A stretch of DNA of 10,230 nucleotides from Promicromonosporaceae bacterium (GTDB taxonomy: Bacteria > Actinomycetota > Actinomycetes > Actinomycetales > Cellulomonadaceae): positions 1 to 10,230 of the forward strand of contig WRIF01000032.1 in assembly GCA_009782865.1 (NCBI GenBank). Reading direction: 5' to 3'. The notes below the pieces were generated by a model. The model was not told the origin of the DNA. It ran no database searches and saw only the letters and a list, made by a program, of their open reading frames with translations. Both the position numbers and the translations under genes were made by a program. Positions within the stretch are counted from its first letter, which is position 1, and each line of letters begins with the position of its first letter. Below, in pieces: positions 1 to 5,322 of this stretch.

Positions 1-377
1 TCATACTCCGACATGCAGCGGCAGGCGGGGGCTGTCACGCCCTTTCGGTCACGGTTTGGCCACGGCCGCTAACGGTCCGATAACGACGACCAAGCGCCCC
101 TGCCTCGCCCTAGATCGGCCCTACTTGACCAACTCGGCAGACGCCGGGGCGAGGGTTTGAGCGACGCCGGGCCGGGGAAACGCCTCTCGGCGCGTGGCCG
201 CTCGCAGCGGCTGAATATGGAGCCCGGGGGCTTCCACACGACCCGACGTCGCACCCCCACCCTACGCCAAAAATGCGTCGCGCATAAGTCGAGTCGCTGA
301 ACGTGGCCAGGCTGGCCGCCCGTCCGCAGCGGGAACTGATCGCACCATCTTCGGGGTGGTGGCGGCCGGGCGTACCG
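1..377. other. Non-coding stretch with several inverted repeats
   Basis: I see no reading frame here that looks like a real gene. The frames that cross it are short, arginine- and proline-rich, and mostly antisense to the gene at 378-839. Several inverted repeats are visible: CCTCGCCC at 103-110 against GGGCGAGG at 147-154 (8 bp, loop about 36); GCCGCT at 197-202 against AGCGGC at 206-211 (loop 3); a roughly 7-bp hairpin with one G-T pair around 215-232 (GGAGCCC/GGGCTTCC); and ATGCG/CGCAT at 273-285. I recognise no tRNA, rRNA or named RNA family. It may be the 3' region between a gene to the left of the window and the leftward gene at 378-839. Confidence 0.5.
269..285 (-). terminator. Candidate intrinsic terminator of the 378-839 gene
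   Basis: Read on the minus strand, ATGCG-CGA-CGCAT forms a 5-bp stem with a 3-base loop and is followed directly by a run of T (five counting the last stem base). It lies about 90 bases past the stop codon of the leftward gene at 378-839. The stem is short, so the hairpin would be weak. This is a shape-based guess only. Confidence 0.3.
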
Positions 378-839
378 TCAGGCAAGCTGTCCGCGGCGCC
401 AGAGGTGGGCGGCGTGCCGCAACTCCTCTGCCGTCTCCGGGGCACCGTCTCCGAGCAGGGCGGCTCCCTGCTCACACAGTTCGGCCAGGTCTCCCGTGAA
501 CTGCCCGGCAAAAAGATCGTCCAGATCGAAGGCGAAGTCGGTGCCATTGCCGTCGGCCAGGGCCCGCAGTGGCAGGAGGCGCCACAACACGCCCGGCAGG
601 GTGGTGGCGGGGGCGTCGGCCCACAACTCGGCCATTTCGTCTAGCCCGTCGTCGTCGACCAGTTTGGCGACGCGGGCGACGACATCGGCGTCAACCCTTG
701 CCCGTTCGCCGAGCACGACGGCCCGGGCCGTGGCGTGCGCGAGATCGTCACGCAGTTCGGGATCGCCGGGATTGGGAATCTCTACGGCCTCGTCCCAGTC
801 GAGTTGGGCCGGGCGGCGAAAGTGCATCTGCGAACTCAT
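378..839 (-). CDS. Conserved-looking acidic protein of unknown function (153 aa)
   Basis: I do not recognise the family. The protein is strongly acidic, with many Asp/Glu, and appears all-helical and soluble, with no signal peptide or membrane segment. Visible landmarks are an N-terminal MSSQMHFRRPAQLDWDE, a TLPGVLWRLLPLRAL stretch around residues 79-93 and a C-terminal AEELRHAAHLWRR. High GC in third codon positions supports coding. The start is ATG at 839; a second in-frame ATG four codons later (827) is an alternative. GAGG ends only one base before the first ATG, which is too close for a normal ribosome site, and a -10-like CATAAT sits so close that the transcript could be leaderless. It is read in the same direction as the aldo/keto reductase but is separated from it by 151 bases carrying the parS-like pair, so it probably has its own promoter. 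A role linked to ParB or the nucleoid cannot be argued from sequence. Confidence 0.7.
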   Translation of the reverse strand: MSSQMHFRRPAQLDWDEAVEIPNPGDPELRDDLAHATARAVVLGERARVDADVVARVAKLVDDDGLDEMAELWADAPATTLPGVLWRLLPLRALADGNGTDFAFDLDDLFAGQFTGDLAELCEQGAALLGDGAPETAEELRHAAHLWRRGQLA

Positions 840-844
840 GCCTC

Positions 845-874
845 ATTATGGGCACGTTCCACCGGTTCCCACAA
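845..874 (-). promoter_or_regulatory. Candidate promoter for the 378-839 gene
   Basis: On the minus strand TTGTGG (874 to 869) is followed after 18 bases by CATAAT (850 to 845). These resemble -35 and -10 boxes of the main sigma factor. Initiation about 6-7 bases downstream would fall at or next to the ATG at 839, which would explain the lack of a properly spaced ribosome site (leaderless mRNA, common in actinobacteria). The nearest parS-like site lies just upstream, at 884-899. Confidence 0.35.
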
Positions 875-883
875 CGCCAGTCA

Positions 884-899
884 CTTTTCACGTGAAACG
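884..899. other. parS: parS-like ParB-binding site 1
   Basis: The core TTTTCACGTGAAAC (885-898) is a near-perfect palindrome centred on CACGTG (889-894). Against the known bacterial parS consensus TGTTTCACGTGAAACA it matches 13 of 16 positions over 884-899. ParB binds such sites, spreads along DNA and, with ParA and SMC, drives origin segregation. The site is intergenic and has a second copy 22 bp away. CACGTG occurs nowhere else that I noticed in the window. Confidence 0.75.
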
Positions 900-905
900 C
901 ACCCG

Positions 906-921
906 GTTTTCACGTGAAACA
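906..921. other. parS: parS-like ParB-binding site 2
   Basis: GTTTTCACGTGAAACA matches 14 of 16 positions of the parS consensus TGTTTCACGTGAAACA; the palindromic core CACGTG is at 911-916. Its 14-bp core is identical to that of site 1, including the departure from consensus (T for G at the first position of GTTTCACGTGAAAC). The centres are 22 bp apart, about two helical turns, so two ParB dimers would sit on the same face of the DNA. Chromosomal parS sites in actinobacteria normally cluster near oriC. Confidence 0.8.
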
Positions 922-990: not shown

Positions 991-1830
991 TCAGCGGTCC
1001 AGGCGATCCTCCAGGTCGGGGTGGGTGCCGGAGCGTTGATCGCGGTCGAGCGCGGTGATCTGCCCCATCTCCTGGGGGGTGAGTTCGAAGTCGAAGACGT
1101 CCGCGTTTTGCGCCAGGCGTTCGGGATGCGAGCTCTTGGGGAACACCACGAACCCCTGCTGGAGGTGCCAGCGCAGCGCCACCTGGGCCGGTGACTTGCC
1201 GTGGGTCGCGGCGATGGCTGCCAGCCTGGGGTCGCCCAGCACGGCCGCGCGACCCAGGGGGGACCAGGCCTCGGTGACAATTCCTCGCGCCTGGTTGTAG
1301 GCGGTGACCTCGGCGTTTACAAAGTAGGGGTTGACCTCGACCTGGTTGACCGCCGGGGTGATGGTTCCGGTTTCGGCCAGCGTCTCCAGGTGGGCGGGCT
1401 GGAAGTTGGAGACCCCGATTGCCCGGGCGCGGCCACTGGCGTAGATCTCCTCCAGGGCGCCCCACGCCTCCGAGTAGAGGCCGTACATTGGCAGGGGCCA
1501 GTGGATCAGGTAGAGGTCAACGTAGTCGGTACCGAGCTCCTGCAACGAACGCTCAAAGGCGGCGAGCGCGTCGTCATGCCGGTGATAGGCGTTGTTGAGC
1601 TTGGTGGTCAGGAATATCTCCTCGCGCGACAGGCCGGAGTCGGAGATTCCCTGGCCCACCTCGCGCTCGTTGCGATACATCGCCGCGGTGTCGATGTGGC
1701 GATAGCCGAGTTCCAGGGCCTGGCGCACCAGCGCGCGCCCTTGGGCCGCCTCCACCTTGTAGGTGCCGAGGCCGAGTTGGGGAATCTCTACGCCGTTGTT
1801 GAGGGGAATCTGGGGGACCTTGAGGCTCAT
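991..1830 (-). CDS. Aldo/keto reductase (AKR, 2,5-diketo-D-gluconate reductase-like)
   Basis: A 279-residue NADPH-dependent carbonyl reductase of the aldo/keto reductase superfamily, a single cytoplasmic TIM barrel. The family's catalytic tetrad is visible as Asp47 and Tyr52 (GYRHIDTAAMY), Lys77 (TTKLNN) and His110 (LYLIHWP). The GVSNF motif is at 139-143 and the NQVEVNPY stretch at 162-169. The cofactor segment FPKSSHPERLAQN (230-242) provides the Lys-Ser and Arg expected for the 2'-phosphate of NADPH. Length is normal for prokaryotic members such as DkgA/DkgB or YvgN, which reduce methylglyoxal and other aldehydes; the true substrate cannot be told. The start is fixed: a stop codon in the same frame lies one codon upstream of ATG 1830. 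The ATG overlaps the stop of the upstream aminotransferase (ATGA), implying translational coupling, which may compensate for the poorly spaced GAGG one base before the ATG. Confidence 0.93.
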   Translation of the reverse strand: MSLKVPQIPLNNGVEIPQLGLGTYKVEAAQGRALVRQALELGYRHIDTAAMYRNEREVGQGISDSGLSREEIFLTTKLNNAYHRHDDALAAFERSLQELGTDYVDLYLIHWPLPMYGLYSEAWGALEEIYASGRARAIGVSNFQPAHLETLAETGTITPAVNQVEVNPYFVNAEVTAYNQARGIVTEAWSPLGRAAVLGDPRLAAIAATHGKSPAQVALRWHLQQGFVVFPKSSHPERLAQNADVFDFELTPQEMGQITALDRDQRSGTHPDLEDRLDR

Positions 1831-3233
1831 GCCTCAATTGTGCCCGGACGCGGCGGCGTTCGCCTCCACCGGGCGGCGAGGTTGAGCAGGGCATCGCCTG
1901 CCTCCGGCTCGCCAATCGAGACGCGGATGCCTTCACCGGCAAAGGGGCGCACCAAGATGCCGGCCGCTCGCGCCTCGGCGGCGGCCTCGGCGGCGGCCTC
2001 GCCAAGCGGGAACCAGACAAAGTTGGCCTGCGTGTCTGGCAGGCTCCACCCCTGCTCGCGCAGGGCGCCGGTCACCCGCTCGCGCTCGGCGATGAGCGCG
2101 GACACGCGAGCCCACAACTCCTCCTGGGCGGGCGCAGCGAGGGAGGCGAGCGCCGCCTCCTGCGAGACGCCCGTCACACCAAACGGGGTGGCCACCGCGC
2201 GGACGGCGGCCGCCACCTCCGGTACCGCCACGCAGTACCCCACGCGCAGGCCGGCCAGGCCATACGCCTTTGACAGCGTCCGGAGGATGACCAGGTTGGG
2301 GCGGCGCGCCAGCGTAGCGGGCAGCCCGCCCACCGCCTCGTCACAATCCGCCTCATCGGCCTCGCCGCGGGCCGGGGCGCGGGGCTCGGGGGTGGGGCCA
2401 GCCGGAGACCAGGCGGTGGGCTCGGCCACGAACTCCAGGTAGGCCTCGTCAAACACCACCAAGACGTGGGGCGGAACGGCCGCGAGGAAGGCCTCGAACT
2501 CCCGCCTGGCGACGGTGGGACCGGTGGGATTGTTGGGCGAGCAGACCAACACCATTCGCGTCCGGGGGGTGATCGCGGCGAGCATGGCCGGGAGGTCGTG
2601 CCGCCCATCTGGCAGGAGAGGCACTCGCACCTGCCTGCCGCCGGCAATATCGACGGCAATCGGGTACGCCTCGAACGAACGCCAGGCGAACACCACCTCA
2701 TCGCCTCGGCCCGCCTCAACGTAGGCGGAGAGCAGGTGGGCGAGGACGGCCACCGAACCGTTGCCGACCACCAGGCAGGAGGCATCCACCCCTGCATGTG
2801 CCGCGAGCGCCGCTGCCACGTCGGTGGCGTACATGTCCGGGTAGCGGTTGAGCGATTCGGCCGCCCGGGCGACGGCCTCCAGGACGCTGGGCAGGGGCGG
2901 GTAGGGGTTCTCGTTCGAGGACAGCTTCCACAGTCGCTGACCTGGGTCGGGGCGCGCTCCTGGAACGTAGGGGGGCAGGGCGGCGACCGCCGGGCGCGGG
3001 CCGCCGGGCCGGGCGCCATCCCCGGCGGCACGGCGAGCGCCTTCCCCAGCACCGTCTCGAGCGCCGCCCCCAGCTCTGCCCCCAGCGGTGTCGGGAGCGC
3101 TGCCTCGGACGCCTTCTCGGGCGCGCTCTCGAGCGCCGTCTCGGGCGCCCTCTTGGCTGCCGCGCTCCGCCTGGTCGGGGCGGGCCTCCCCCTTGGCGTC
3201 GTCGCGGAAACTGGAAGCCATGGCGCCGATCAT
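1827..3233 (-). CDS. pat: Phenylalanine/histidinol-phosphate-type aminotransferase (HisC2/Pat family) with extra low-complexity segments
   Basis: A pyridoxal-phosphate aminotransferase, fold type I, closest in motifs to the actinobacterial HisC2/Pat group that transaminates aromatic 2-oxo acids or histidinol phosphate. The conserved core starts near residue 80: LPPYVPG (86-92), KLSSNENPYPPLP (103-115), the RSFEAYP stretch (185-191), SPNNPTG (232-238), FDEAY (261-265) and SKAYGLAGLRVGY (321-333) with PLP lysine Lys322. RVSIG near 437 carries the carboxylate-binding arginine. At 468 residues it is about 100 longer than the usual 350-370. The excess is an Ala/Gly/Arg/Glu-rich N-terminus (about 1-79) and an insert between FDEAYLEFV and LPATL (about 270-304). 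From residue 6 to 85 no codon can serve as a start (Val42 and Val83 are GTC, Leu86 is CTG), so the extension is genuine unless the sequence is in error. The start is ATG 3233 or 3221; neither has a clear ribosome site. It is first in an operon with the reductase. Confidence 0.9.
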   Translation of the reverse strand: MIGAMASSFRDDAKGEARPDQAERGSQEGARDGARERAREGVRGSAPDTAGGRAGGGARDGAGEGARRAAGDGARPGGPRPAVAALPPYVPGARPDPGQRLWKLSSNENPYPPLPSVLEAVARAAESLNRYPDMYATDVAAALAAHAGVDASCLVVGNGSVAVLAHLLSAYVEAGRGDEVVFAWRSFEAYPIAVDIAGGRQVRVPLLPDGRHDLPAMLAAITPRTRMVLVCSPNNPTGPTVARREFEAFLAAVPPHVLVVFDEAYLEFVAEPTAWSPAGPTPEPRAPARGEADEADCDEAVGGLPATLARRPNLVILRTLSKAYGLAGLRVGYCVAVPEVAAAVRAVATPFGVTGVSQEAALASLAAPAQEELWARVSALIAERERVTGALREQGWSLPDTQANFVWFPLGEAAAEAAAEARAAGILVRPFAGEGIRVSIGEPEAGDALLNLAARWRRTPPRPGTIEA

Positions 3234-3716: not shown

Positions 3717-3742
3717 GCGCGCTGGTCGGGAAGGTCGCGCGC
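3717..3742. terminator. Weak candidate bidirectional hairpin between convergent genes
   Basis: The 36 bases between the convergent stop codons contain GCGCGC at 3717-3722 and again at 3737-3742. The element is self-complementary, so the two copies can pair (6 bp, loop 14), and they also read as a direct repeat GCGCGCT-G. No T-run is present. It is the only structure available for terminating either gene here. Confidence 0.22.
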
Positions 3743-5322
3743 TAGTCAGAATCGCGTCGCGCGGTGGCATAGAAGGTGGTCTCGGCCCTCTCGCCCTGCA
3801 TCACCTCCTCGATTCGCTCCGTCACCTGCCGCACGGCCTGGTTATCGCTGGCCCTGGCCGCAGCCAGGGTGCGCAGGTGGGTGTCGATCCCGTGGGCGGC
3901 CCCCAGGCTGCCCACGGCGGCCAGGTCTGCCAGGTCGGGCGAGTCTATGAGCGAGCGGGTGACGGTCACCCGGTCGACGCTTTGCGGGTTTCCCCGCGCC
4001 GGCAACCCATCGAGGGCAGAGACCATGTCCTCGGCATTCTCAAGGTGCAGTACCGGAATGCCGGCGGGGATGACGAAGGTGGCGGTGGGCGAACCCGCGG
4101 TGACCACCCCGCCGAGGGTGTAGCGCTCTGCGAACCACGGGGTGGCGGCGGCCGCCGCCGCCGTGATTCCGCCCAGGGAGTGCCCCAGCAACACCACCGG
4201 TTCGGCCTTGGCCACCCCAGCCTGGGCGAGCGCCCCGTCAAGGGCGAGCAGCATCTCGGCCGACCCGTGGGCCATCAGCTGCAGGTCGCTGAGCCCATCG
4301 AACACATGCTCTCCCATCAACGCGGACTGAGTGCCGGGAAGCAGCACGTTCCAAGAGACGGAGCCGTCGGCATGTGCCACCCGCTGGACCGCGAGCGTGC
4401 CCGGGGGAACCCCGGCCCGCGCCTCGGGCGCCCCGCTGCCGGTGAGCGACGGCAGGCGAGCCAGCGCCGCGTCGATGGAGCCGTCGTACTCCGCATCCCA
4501 GTCTCCCCCTGGACCGGCTCCACCCAGGCCTACTCCCCCTAAGCCAATTTCTCTTGGGCCGGTCGGGAACACGGGGTGGACGTCGACACCGGCCGCGCCC
4601 GTGATTGCCAGCGCGCCGCGCGAGAGCACCCTTGCCGCTCCGGTGACGGAAAGATCGCCCCCGACAAACGGCAGGAAGGCCAGGGAGAGGCCGAGCCCGA
4701 GGTCGCCGACTAACTCGTCGTAGCAGTTCGCCACCGCGGCGCTGAGGCGTCGTGCCCAACCCGAACCGGCGAAGGCCCAACTCACCAGGCCCAGCAGGGC
4801 CACGTTCCGCTTTTGCCGATGACAGATGAAGGATTGGAGGAAGCCCTCGGTCTCGGAGTAGATGCTGGCCGCCTGCAGCAGCCGCCGCCGCCAGAGGTCG
4901 GCCAGGTCTGCACTGGCGCGCAGCATCCCCGCCAGCGCCGACGCCCTCTCCGCCCATGCCCGCAGCAAACTCGGCCGCGCGGCGATCCCCGGACAGACCG
5001 GCGCCAGGGTCACGGTCTCTCGCCTGGCGATGCCCGCCGTGACCGAAAGCGGAGCTGGCTGCCAGGACCTTCGCCTGGCCGCGCCGGCCGCCGCCGCCAA
5101 CCGGCAGGAGGCCAGGCGCAGATCGGTGATCCCGGCCGCCAGGCGTGCGGCGGCGCCCAGGATCGCCGCGACCTCCACCTCGCTCGGACGGGCGCCGCCA
5201 TAGACTCGAATGGCGTCAGAGGCATCGGGGTGGCCGGGGTAGTCGGAGGAACCTGGGTGGCCGGAGGAACCGGGGTGGCCGGGGTGGTCGGGGTGGTCGG
5301 GGTGGTCGGGGTGGTCGGTCAC
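3742..5322 (-). CDS. Alpha/beta-hydrolase (lipase class 3-like) with helical N-terminal half; possible type VII secretion effector
   Basis: A 526-residue protein. Residues 1-36 are a repeat of DHP/GHP and GSS units. About 45-170 is Ala/Leu-rich and helical, ending in YSETE (155-159), which fits the YxxxD/E motif of type VII secretion substrates. About 174-245 is hydrophobic and 256-275 glycine-rich. The C-terminal 210 residues form a hydrolase domain: SWNVLLPGTQ (322-331), the nucleophile elbow GHSLGG (380-385, Ser382), NAEDMV with a likely catalytic Asp432, and a likely catalytic His482 (GIDTHL) or His477. The start is GTG 5322, overlapping the upstream stop as GTGA; the frame is open for 78 more codons upstream, but those are antiparallel to a better-coding frame. 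There is no classical signal peptide. The family suggests ester or lipid hydrolysis; the substrate and export are inference. It could instead be a cytosolic hydrolase. Confidence 0.82.
   Translation of the reverse strand: MTDHPDHPDHPDHPGHPGSSGHPGSSDYPGHPDASDAIRVYGGARPSEVEVAAILGAAARLAAGITDLRLASCRLAAAAGAARRRSWQPAPLSVTAGIARRETVTLAPVCPGIAARPSLLRAWAERASALAGMLRASADLADLWRRRLLQAASIYSETEGFLQSFICHRQKRNVALLGLVSWAFAGSGWARRLSAAVANCYDELVGDLGLGLSLAFLPFVGGDLSVTGAARVLSRGALAITGAAGVDVHPVFPTGPREIGLGGVGLGGAGPGGDWDAEYDGSIDAALARLPSLTGSGAPEARAGVPPGTLAVQRVAHADGSVSWNVLLPGTQSALMGEHVFDGLSDLQLMAHGSAEMLLALDGALAQAGVAKAEPVVLLGHSLGGITAAAAAATPWFAERYTLGGVVTAGSPTATFVIPAGIPVLHLENAEDMVSALDGLPARGNPQSVDRVTVTRSLIDSPDLADLAAVGSLGAAHGIDTHLRTLAAARASDNQAVRQVTERIEEVMQGERAETTFYATARRDSD
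5227..5316. repeat. 9-bp and 18-bp in-frame tandem repeats inside the lipase-like gene
   Basis: GGGGTGGTC occurs four times in perfect tandem at 5281-5316, preceded by a one-mismatch copy at 5272-5280. Two imperfect 18-bp units (5236-5253 and 5254-5271) share the core CGGAGGAACC, and another GGGGTGGCC lies at 5227-5235. On the minus strand they encode DHP, GHP and GSS-containing units immediately after the start codon. All units are multiples of three, so copy-number change would alter protein length but not the reading frame. Confidence 0.9.

Follow-up and report, generated by a model that had tools for sequence, protein, structure and literature searches.

A pair of parS-like sites away from the parAB cluster of a Promicromonosporaceae bacterium: probable accessory loading points for ParB

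The contig WRIF01000032.1 of assembly GCA_009782865.1 (Promicromonosporaceae bacterium), 10,230 nucleotides long and called the window below, carries two neighbouring copies of a parS-like palindrome in one intergenic gap. They are probably true parS sites of the chromosome, of actinobacterial type, and would act as accessory, lineage-specific loading points for ParB, outside the parAB cluster and inside the origin domain. The elements of the window that bear on the pair are the following:

378-839, minus strand: conserved actinobacterial hypothetical protein of 153 aa, without a Pfam or NCBIfam match
840-990, strand not applicable: intergenic gap of 151 bp, from the stop of the aldo/keto reductase gene to the start of the conserved hypothetical gene
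845-874, minus strand: weak promoter-like pair recognized by eye (TTGTGG at 874-869, CATAAT at 850-845), ending near the ATG at 839
885-898, strand not applicable: parS-like site 1, TTTTCACGTGAAAC, agreeing with GTTTCACGTGAAAC at 13 of 14 positions, right half-site intact
899-906, strand not applicable: spacer of 8 bp separating the two 14-mers, which lie 22 bp apart centre to centre
907-920, strand not applicable: parS-like site 2, TTTTCACGTGAAAC, agreeing with GTTTCACGTGAAAC at 13 of 14 positions, right half-site intact and the same half deviant as in site 1
991-1830, minus strand: aldo/keto reductase (PF00248); in four near-complete congeners its orthologue and the parS cluster are 175-236 kb apart

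The two copies, 22 bp apart in the 151-base gap, had been described in the initial annotation and were present as reported. Their 12-base core TTTCACGTGAAA is exact at 886-897 and 908-919, and a scan of the window allowing up to two mismatches gave no core matches beyond these two. Shuffled windows contained 0.09 cores on average, and two cores were seen in none of 200 shuffles. The scores of 13 and 14 of 16 given earlier for the pair are correct against the B. subtilis parS consensus TGTTNCACGTGAAACA, as listed in a table of PMC7022226. The same table gives GTTTCACGTGAAAC, with three copies, as the parS form of Mycobacterium smegmatis, and this form is a better yardstick for the window sites than that of Bacillus. 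The T at the fifth of 16 positions is no real deviation, because the initial annotation had used the Bacillus form. The sole departure of both window sites from GTTTCACGTGAAAC is a T replacing the first G of the left half-site. For comparison, 305 exact cores were counted in 71 genomes of the family. Half-deviant sites, counted with a pattern that leaves out sites deviant at both ends, number four in three of 150 family genomes; two are the window pair, both with T, and one site in each of two other genomes has C.

In the whole assembly (2,006,558 bases, 367 contigs, 77.6% complete, contamination estimate 0.72%) the core occurs at five places on three contigs, to which allowing one mismatch of 12 added none, compared with a chance expectation of 0.016 per 2.0 Mb in a first-order Markov estimate. 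The core is thus not scattered over the genome. The three places other than the window pair, on contigs C14 and C54, are:

C14:10982, gap between rsmG and parA: parS, perfect GTTTCACGTGAAAC
C14:11774, inside parA: parS, perfect GTTTCACGTGAAAC
C54:194, inside parB: parS, perfect GTTTCACGTGAAAC

Contig C14 carries rsmG and parA with two sites, and C54 carries parB with one. RsmG and ParB score above NCBIfam cut-offs, ParB exceeding that of TIGR00180, and ParA was named from ParA-type matches below the family cut-offs and from its position. Both the parS identity suggested earlier and the location of the pair outside the parAB locus are borne out by these sites.

A single ParB_N protein was detected in the assembly. 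When it was aligned to Caulobacter ParB (PDB 6t1f), with the numbering transferred from the residues named in the relevant sections of PMC7383237, the specificity positions were found to be R173, T179, K184 and G201. R173, K184 and G201 are present in all eight ParB proteins compared (this genome and seven congeners) and T179 in seven of them, the eighth, from congener G009, having S. According to the same sections, R173 of ParB contacts guanine 1, lysine is permissive at either 179 or 184, and Caulobacter ParB carrying RTKG is promiscuous, binding several different sites (PMC7383237). This literature, read together with the residues found, suggests that the window sites would bind ParB more weakly than the sites at parAB and would still be permitted. 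The idea that the shared deviation reflects adaptation to a divergent ParB was rejected, because the four specificity residues equal those of six congeners (G009 differs at one) and the genome, with its one ParB_N protein, has three perfect sites.

The position of the pair on the chromosome was read from four near-complete congeners (G002, G005, G008 and G010) of a Xylanimonas-like genus. In each of the four, all six to eight exact cores lie within 5 kb and surround parB, as well as parA and rsmG where the fetched stretch reaches them. The PurB orthologues are found 156-211 kb from this cluster, on the same side as the aldo/keto reductase, and the orthologues of the hypothetical gene 320-374 kb from it, on the opposite side of ori, with G010 taken as a circular contig. 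Since the orthologues of the genes flanking it sit on opposite sides of ori, the gap 840-990 is a synteny breakpoint with respect to these four genomes; the gene orientations would be consistent with a single inversion across ori. In G010, with the contig end assumed to be ori, the genes of the window have their counterparts 163-183 kb away from it. By congener synteny the pair likely lies about 175-235 kb from parAB, inside the ori domain, a distance taken from the gene positions of relatives for a genome that is fragmented and in which the gap itself is the breakpoint. The proximity to the origin assumed in the initial annotation is therefore likely, the neighbouring genes lying 156-236 kb from the parS cluster in all four near-complete congeners.

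The closest named relatives of the aldo/keto reductase are those of Xylanimonas oleitrophica (67%) and Isoptericola (63%); for the hypothetical gene, the genome contigs searched gave no named relative. The order HisC, holin, gene 3742-5316, PurB is retained in the congeners, and NrdD-NrdG in G007. The start of the aldo/keto reductase gene overlaps the stop of HisC by 4 bases (1827-1830), which looks like genome compaction, and in the four near-complete congeners about 14-20 kb separates the two genes. HisC (1827-3233, minus strand), with the start codon of the longest frame, has about 79 extra N-terminal residues, with a high content of Arg, Glu, Gly and Ala, ahead of the aminotransferase match. 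In gene 3742-5316 (minus strand) tandem repeats of the GGTGGTCGG type at 5220-5320 encode HPDHPDHPD near the start; its product, without a Pfam or NCBIfam match, is one that we take to be hydrolase-like from the motif GHSLGG alone.

The search for the pair in relatives covered 33 homologous loci, namely 21 around the aldo/keto reductase, HisC or PurB and 12 around orthologues of the hypothetical gene. None of these loci, all from relatives other than close ones, held a site with up to two mismatches. As the cores of the four near-complete congeners are confined to 5 kb at parAB and none of the 33 loci has a site, the pair looks lineage-specific; among the genomes examined it is private to this one.

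Ten of the 150 family genomes, this one included, have close pairs, defined as cores separated by a gap of at most 30 bp; in the other nine the pair is situated at the parAB locus or next to a gene adjoining parB. The pairs in G001, G004 and G010 were considered as the same feature and rejected, since it is the parAB locus that holds them. The spacings in the family are 22 (window), 26, 26, 30, 31, 34, 35, 37, 40 and 42 bp and have no common helical phase; helical phasing, which had been pointed out for the window pair, is thus not a rule, the nine others spanning 26-42 bp. Throughout the order, close pairs were found in 37 of 396 genomes, made up of 27 with new loci (one each, a second pair of G458 being left out), seven without a locus and unclassified, G000, and two placed earlier. 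In 23 of the 27 further loci the genes correspond to positions -1 to -12 or +7 to +10 kb relative to ori of G010; the remaining four (L373, L375, L377 and L388) could not be placed. Pairing by itself is not unusual in the order, given these 37 genomes, but most of the pairs that were placed are found at parAB or near ori.

Single sites far from the cluster are also known in the family. Among the positions listed, for about 16 of the 71 genomes, G070 (C1:60408) and G082 (C1:361567) have in common a distal exact core (L332:10009 and L333:9968) that is 242-267 kb away from the parAB cluster and has conserved flanks; in G062 two sites are found outside the cluster. A distal parS site thus has precedents in the family, whereas a pair that is both distal and half-deviant is rare. 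Compact clusters of three to eight sites were observed in eight congeners.

Two further arrangements were noted. At L375:1501-1553 and L377:1501-1553, in genomes of another family within the order, close parS pairs are arranged as a long inverted repeat whose outer first position is T. The divergent congener G009 (65% complete; L051-L067, L285-L300) has 18 exact cores on 16 contigs, eight of them inside the longer palindrome ATGTTTCACGTGAAACAT. Five of these 16 contigs carry genes located within 32 kb of ori in G010, compared with none of 20 control contigs; other core contigs of G009 map farther, to about 330 kb, and six were unmapped in the 800 kb compared.

ParB proteins that have been studied load at parS, close into a clamp with CTP, slide along the DNA and have ParA and SMC as partners. 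This is described in part in PMC7022226. By analogy with these proteins, a ParB dimer would dock on each palindrome of the window, bind CTP, close into a clamp and slide along the flanking DNA, and the small ParB complex at the pair would join the ParB zone of the ori domain that serves SMC loading and segregation driven by ParA. With T in place of G at position 1 of one half-site, as in both copies, each site would be weaker, and two neighbouring docking points may partly offset this weakening. According to PMC5815017, Caulobacter best tolerates an additional parS cluster when it is placed inside a zone of about 500 kb surrounding the native cluster, and in Pseudomonas, according to PMC5098823, parS is functional in a zone of about 650 kb. 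For C. glutamicum, PMC7083940 states that degenerate sites with at least three mismatches recruit no ParB and that the ten good sites do. One mismatch of 14 in the window, against at least three in the non-recruiting sites, points together with the tolerated zones to loading sites that are probably accessory and of weak to moderate strength. The rarity of the lesion, the outcome of the search for the pair in relatives and the position at a breakpoint count against this explanation, as do the match of the NCBIfam Noc model to the ParB and the weak tie of the contig to the genome in tetranucleotide use.

The first three of these observations are the basis of the main rival, that the sites are decaying or neutral: parS copies would have arrived, for instance with a rearrangement, been duplicated and be losing strength, the contact with ParB being weak and without a role in segregation. 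The loss of the same half-site G from both copies, rare across the family, would fit such a history, as would the breakpoint at 840-990 and the lack of a site at this locus in any relative examined. However, the 12-bp core is intact twice, and the two 14-mers are identical while the eight bases following each copy agree at only three of eight positions (by eye), which suggests constraint on the 14-mers or separate origins; decay is regarded as unlikely. The expression of the neighbouring gene, which the initial annotation thought might be affected, leads to another reading, in which the pair, with ParB bound to it, regulates the hypothetical gene 378-839, which starts about 45 bp away. A review, PMC7022226, mentions in one of its parts that in Pseudomonas ParB on the intergenic sites parS3 and parS4 represses adjoining genes, and the window pair is located just upstream of the weak promoter-like pair that was recognized by eye on the minus strand. 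The consensus promoter scan nevertheless reported none in the gap, and none of the 12 orthologue loci of the hypothetical gene has a site with up to two mismatches; control of this kind would therefore be private to this genome, and we consider it very improbable.

That the palindromes act in RNA, pairing as a 12-bp stem of a hairpin or terminator in the transcript downstream of the aldo/keto reductase gene, is scarcely credible. The stem did appear in all three folds made, but such a stem arises from any two copies of a palindrome and folding was marginally better than in shuffles (z -1.0, -1.6 and -1.9). Moreover, the stem is A+T-rich without a T run, a terminator-like site was not found, and the G-C pair that would lengthen the stem is exactly the one that was lost. 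Nor is it at all probable that the contig comes from another organism through an error of binning or assembly, as might be feared for a genome in 367 contigs of which the window is one entire contig. Its tetranucleotide correlation is 0.67 with the parA contig and 0.74 with the parB contig, but 0.55-0.68 with six stretches of G010 and 0.32-0.59 with eight stretches of other genomes; the test thus hardly separates congeners and ties the contig only weakly to the genome. Against an artefact are the gene order HisC, holin, gene 3742-5316, PurB, NrdD, NrdG, which is that of congener G007, the similarity of the contig proteins to those of congeners, about as high as for the proteins of the parA and parB contigs, and the contamination estimate of 0.72%.

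It may be speculated, as a rather improbable extension, that the pair represents a young second centromere patch, in which two weakened adjacent parS sites became established in a lineage of smaller genome, where an inversion-type breakpoint lies about 180 kb from ori, as an intermediate in the expansion of parS territory. The lost G, tolerated by virtue of the permissive lysine of ParB, could then tune down the ectopic site and spare the main cluster competition. The growth of centromere-like regions is named as an open question in part of PMC5815017, and the family offers natural cases of compact clusters, a distal site kept in two species, a distal weakened pair and the dispersed set of G009. 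For the window alone the finding is modest.

A second element was recognized on the other side of the hypothetical gene:

157-256, minus strand: structured RNA of about 95 nt, 3' of the hypothetical gene 378-839, with a 14-bp closing stem, strong covariation and inner hairpins

A covariance model (E of at most 0.001) detected the element in 156 of the 296 class genomes. In each of the 30 best-scoring loci, that of the window included, the hypothetical gene stands ahead of it on the same strand, no more than about 0.4 kb away. In an alignment of 49 sequences the 29 predicted pairs are standard in 98.4% of cells and 12 pairs change on both sides; none of 500 shuffles reached any of the five measures, and slid structures scored far lower. 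Neither the window nor three relatives gave an Rfam 15 match, and a search of the open-licence literature on this RNA found nothing relevant. The element probably represents either a small RNA or part of a 3'-UTR, conserved in both cases, and can be put forward as a candidate new RNA family. Its assignment as the leader of a DUF47-pit operon was rejected, pit genes being downstream in five of the 30 loci (about 1.5 kb was covered on that side) against the hypothetical gene before it in all 30.

The window sites may finally be compared with known binding sites. The Noc binding site (NBS) differs from parS at positions 1 and 6 only, as given in a section of PMC7383237, and the window sites likewise depart from parS at position 1, in a single half-site. 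However, position 1 is T and not A, position 6 is A as in parS, and the sole ParB_N protein detected carries R173 and G201, the residues of ParB; the NCBIfam Noc model matches this protein with the better E-value, yet at 207 bits against a cut-off of 315 bits. In the absence of A1 and C6, and with the single ParB_N protein below the Noc cut-off, identity with NBS was rejected. The distal sites of G070 and G082 resemble the pair in having an exact core 242-267 kb from the parAB cluster; they differ in being single, perfect and kept in two species of another genus, and no gene there is common with the window. The chromosomal parS sites of actinobacteria, for which a table of PMC7022226 lists 10 copies in C. 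glutamicum and 21 in Streptomyces coelicolor, differ from the window sites in that the latter match at 13 of 14 positions, form a pair, 22 bp apart, away from the parAB cluster and are without the first G in one half of each copy. The likeness lies in the 12-bp core, the palindromic layout, the presence of several copies and the occurrence in the same genome as parAB with a conserved ParB. The pair probably represents minor additional copies of an already known system.
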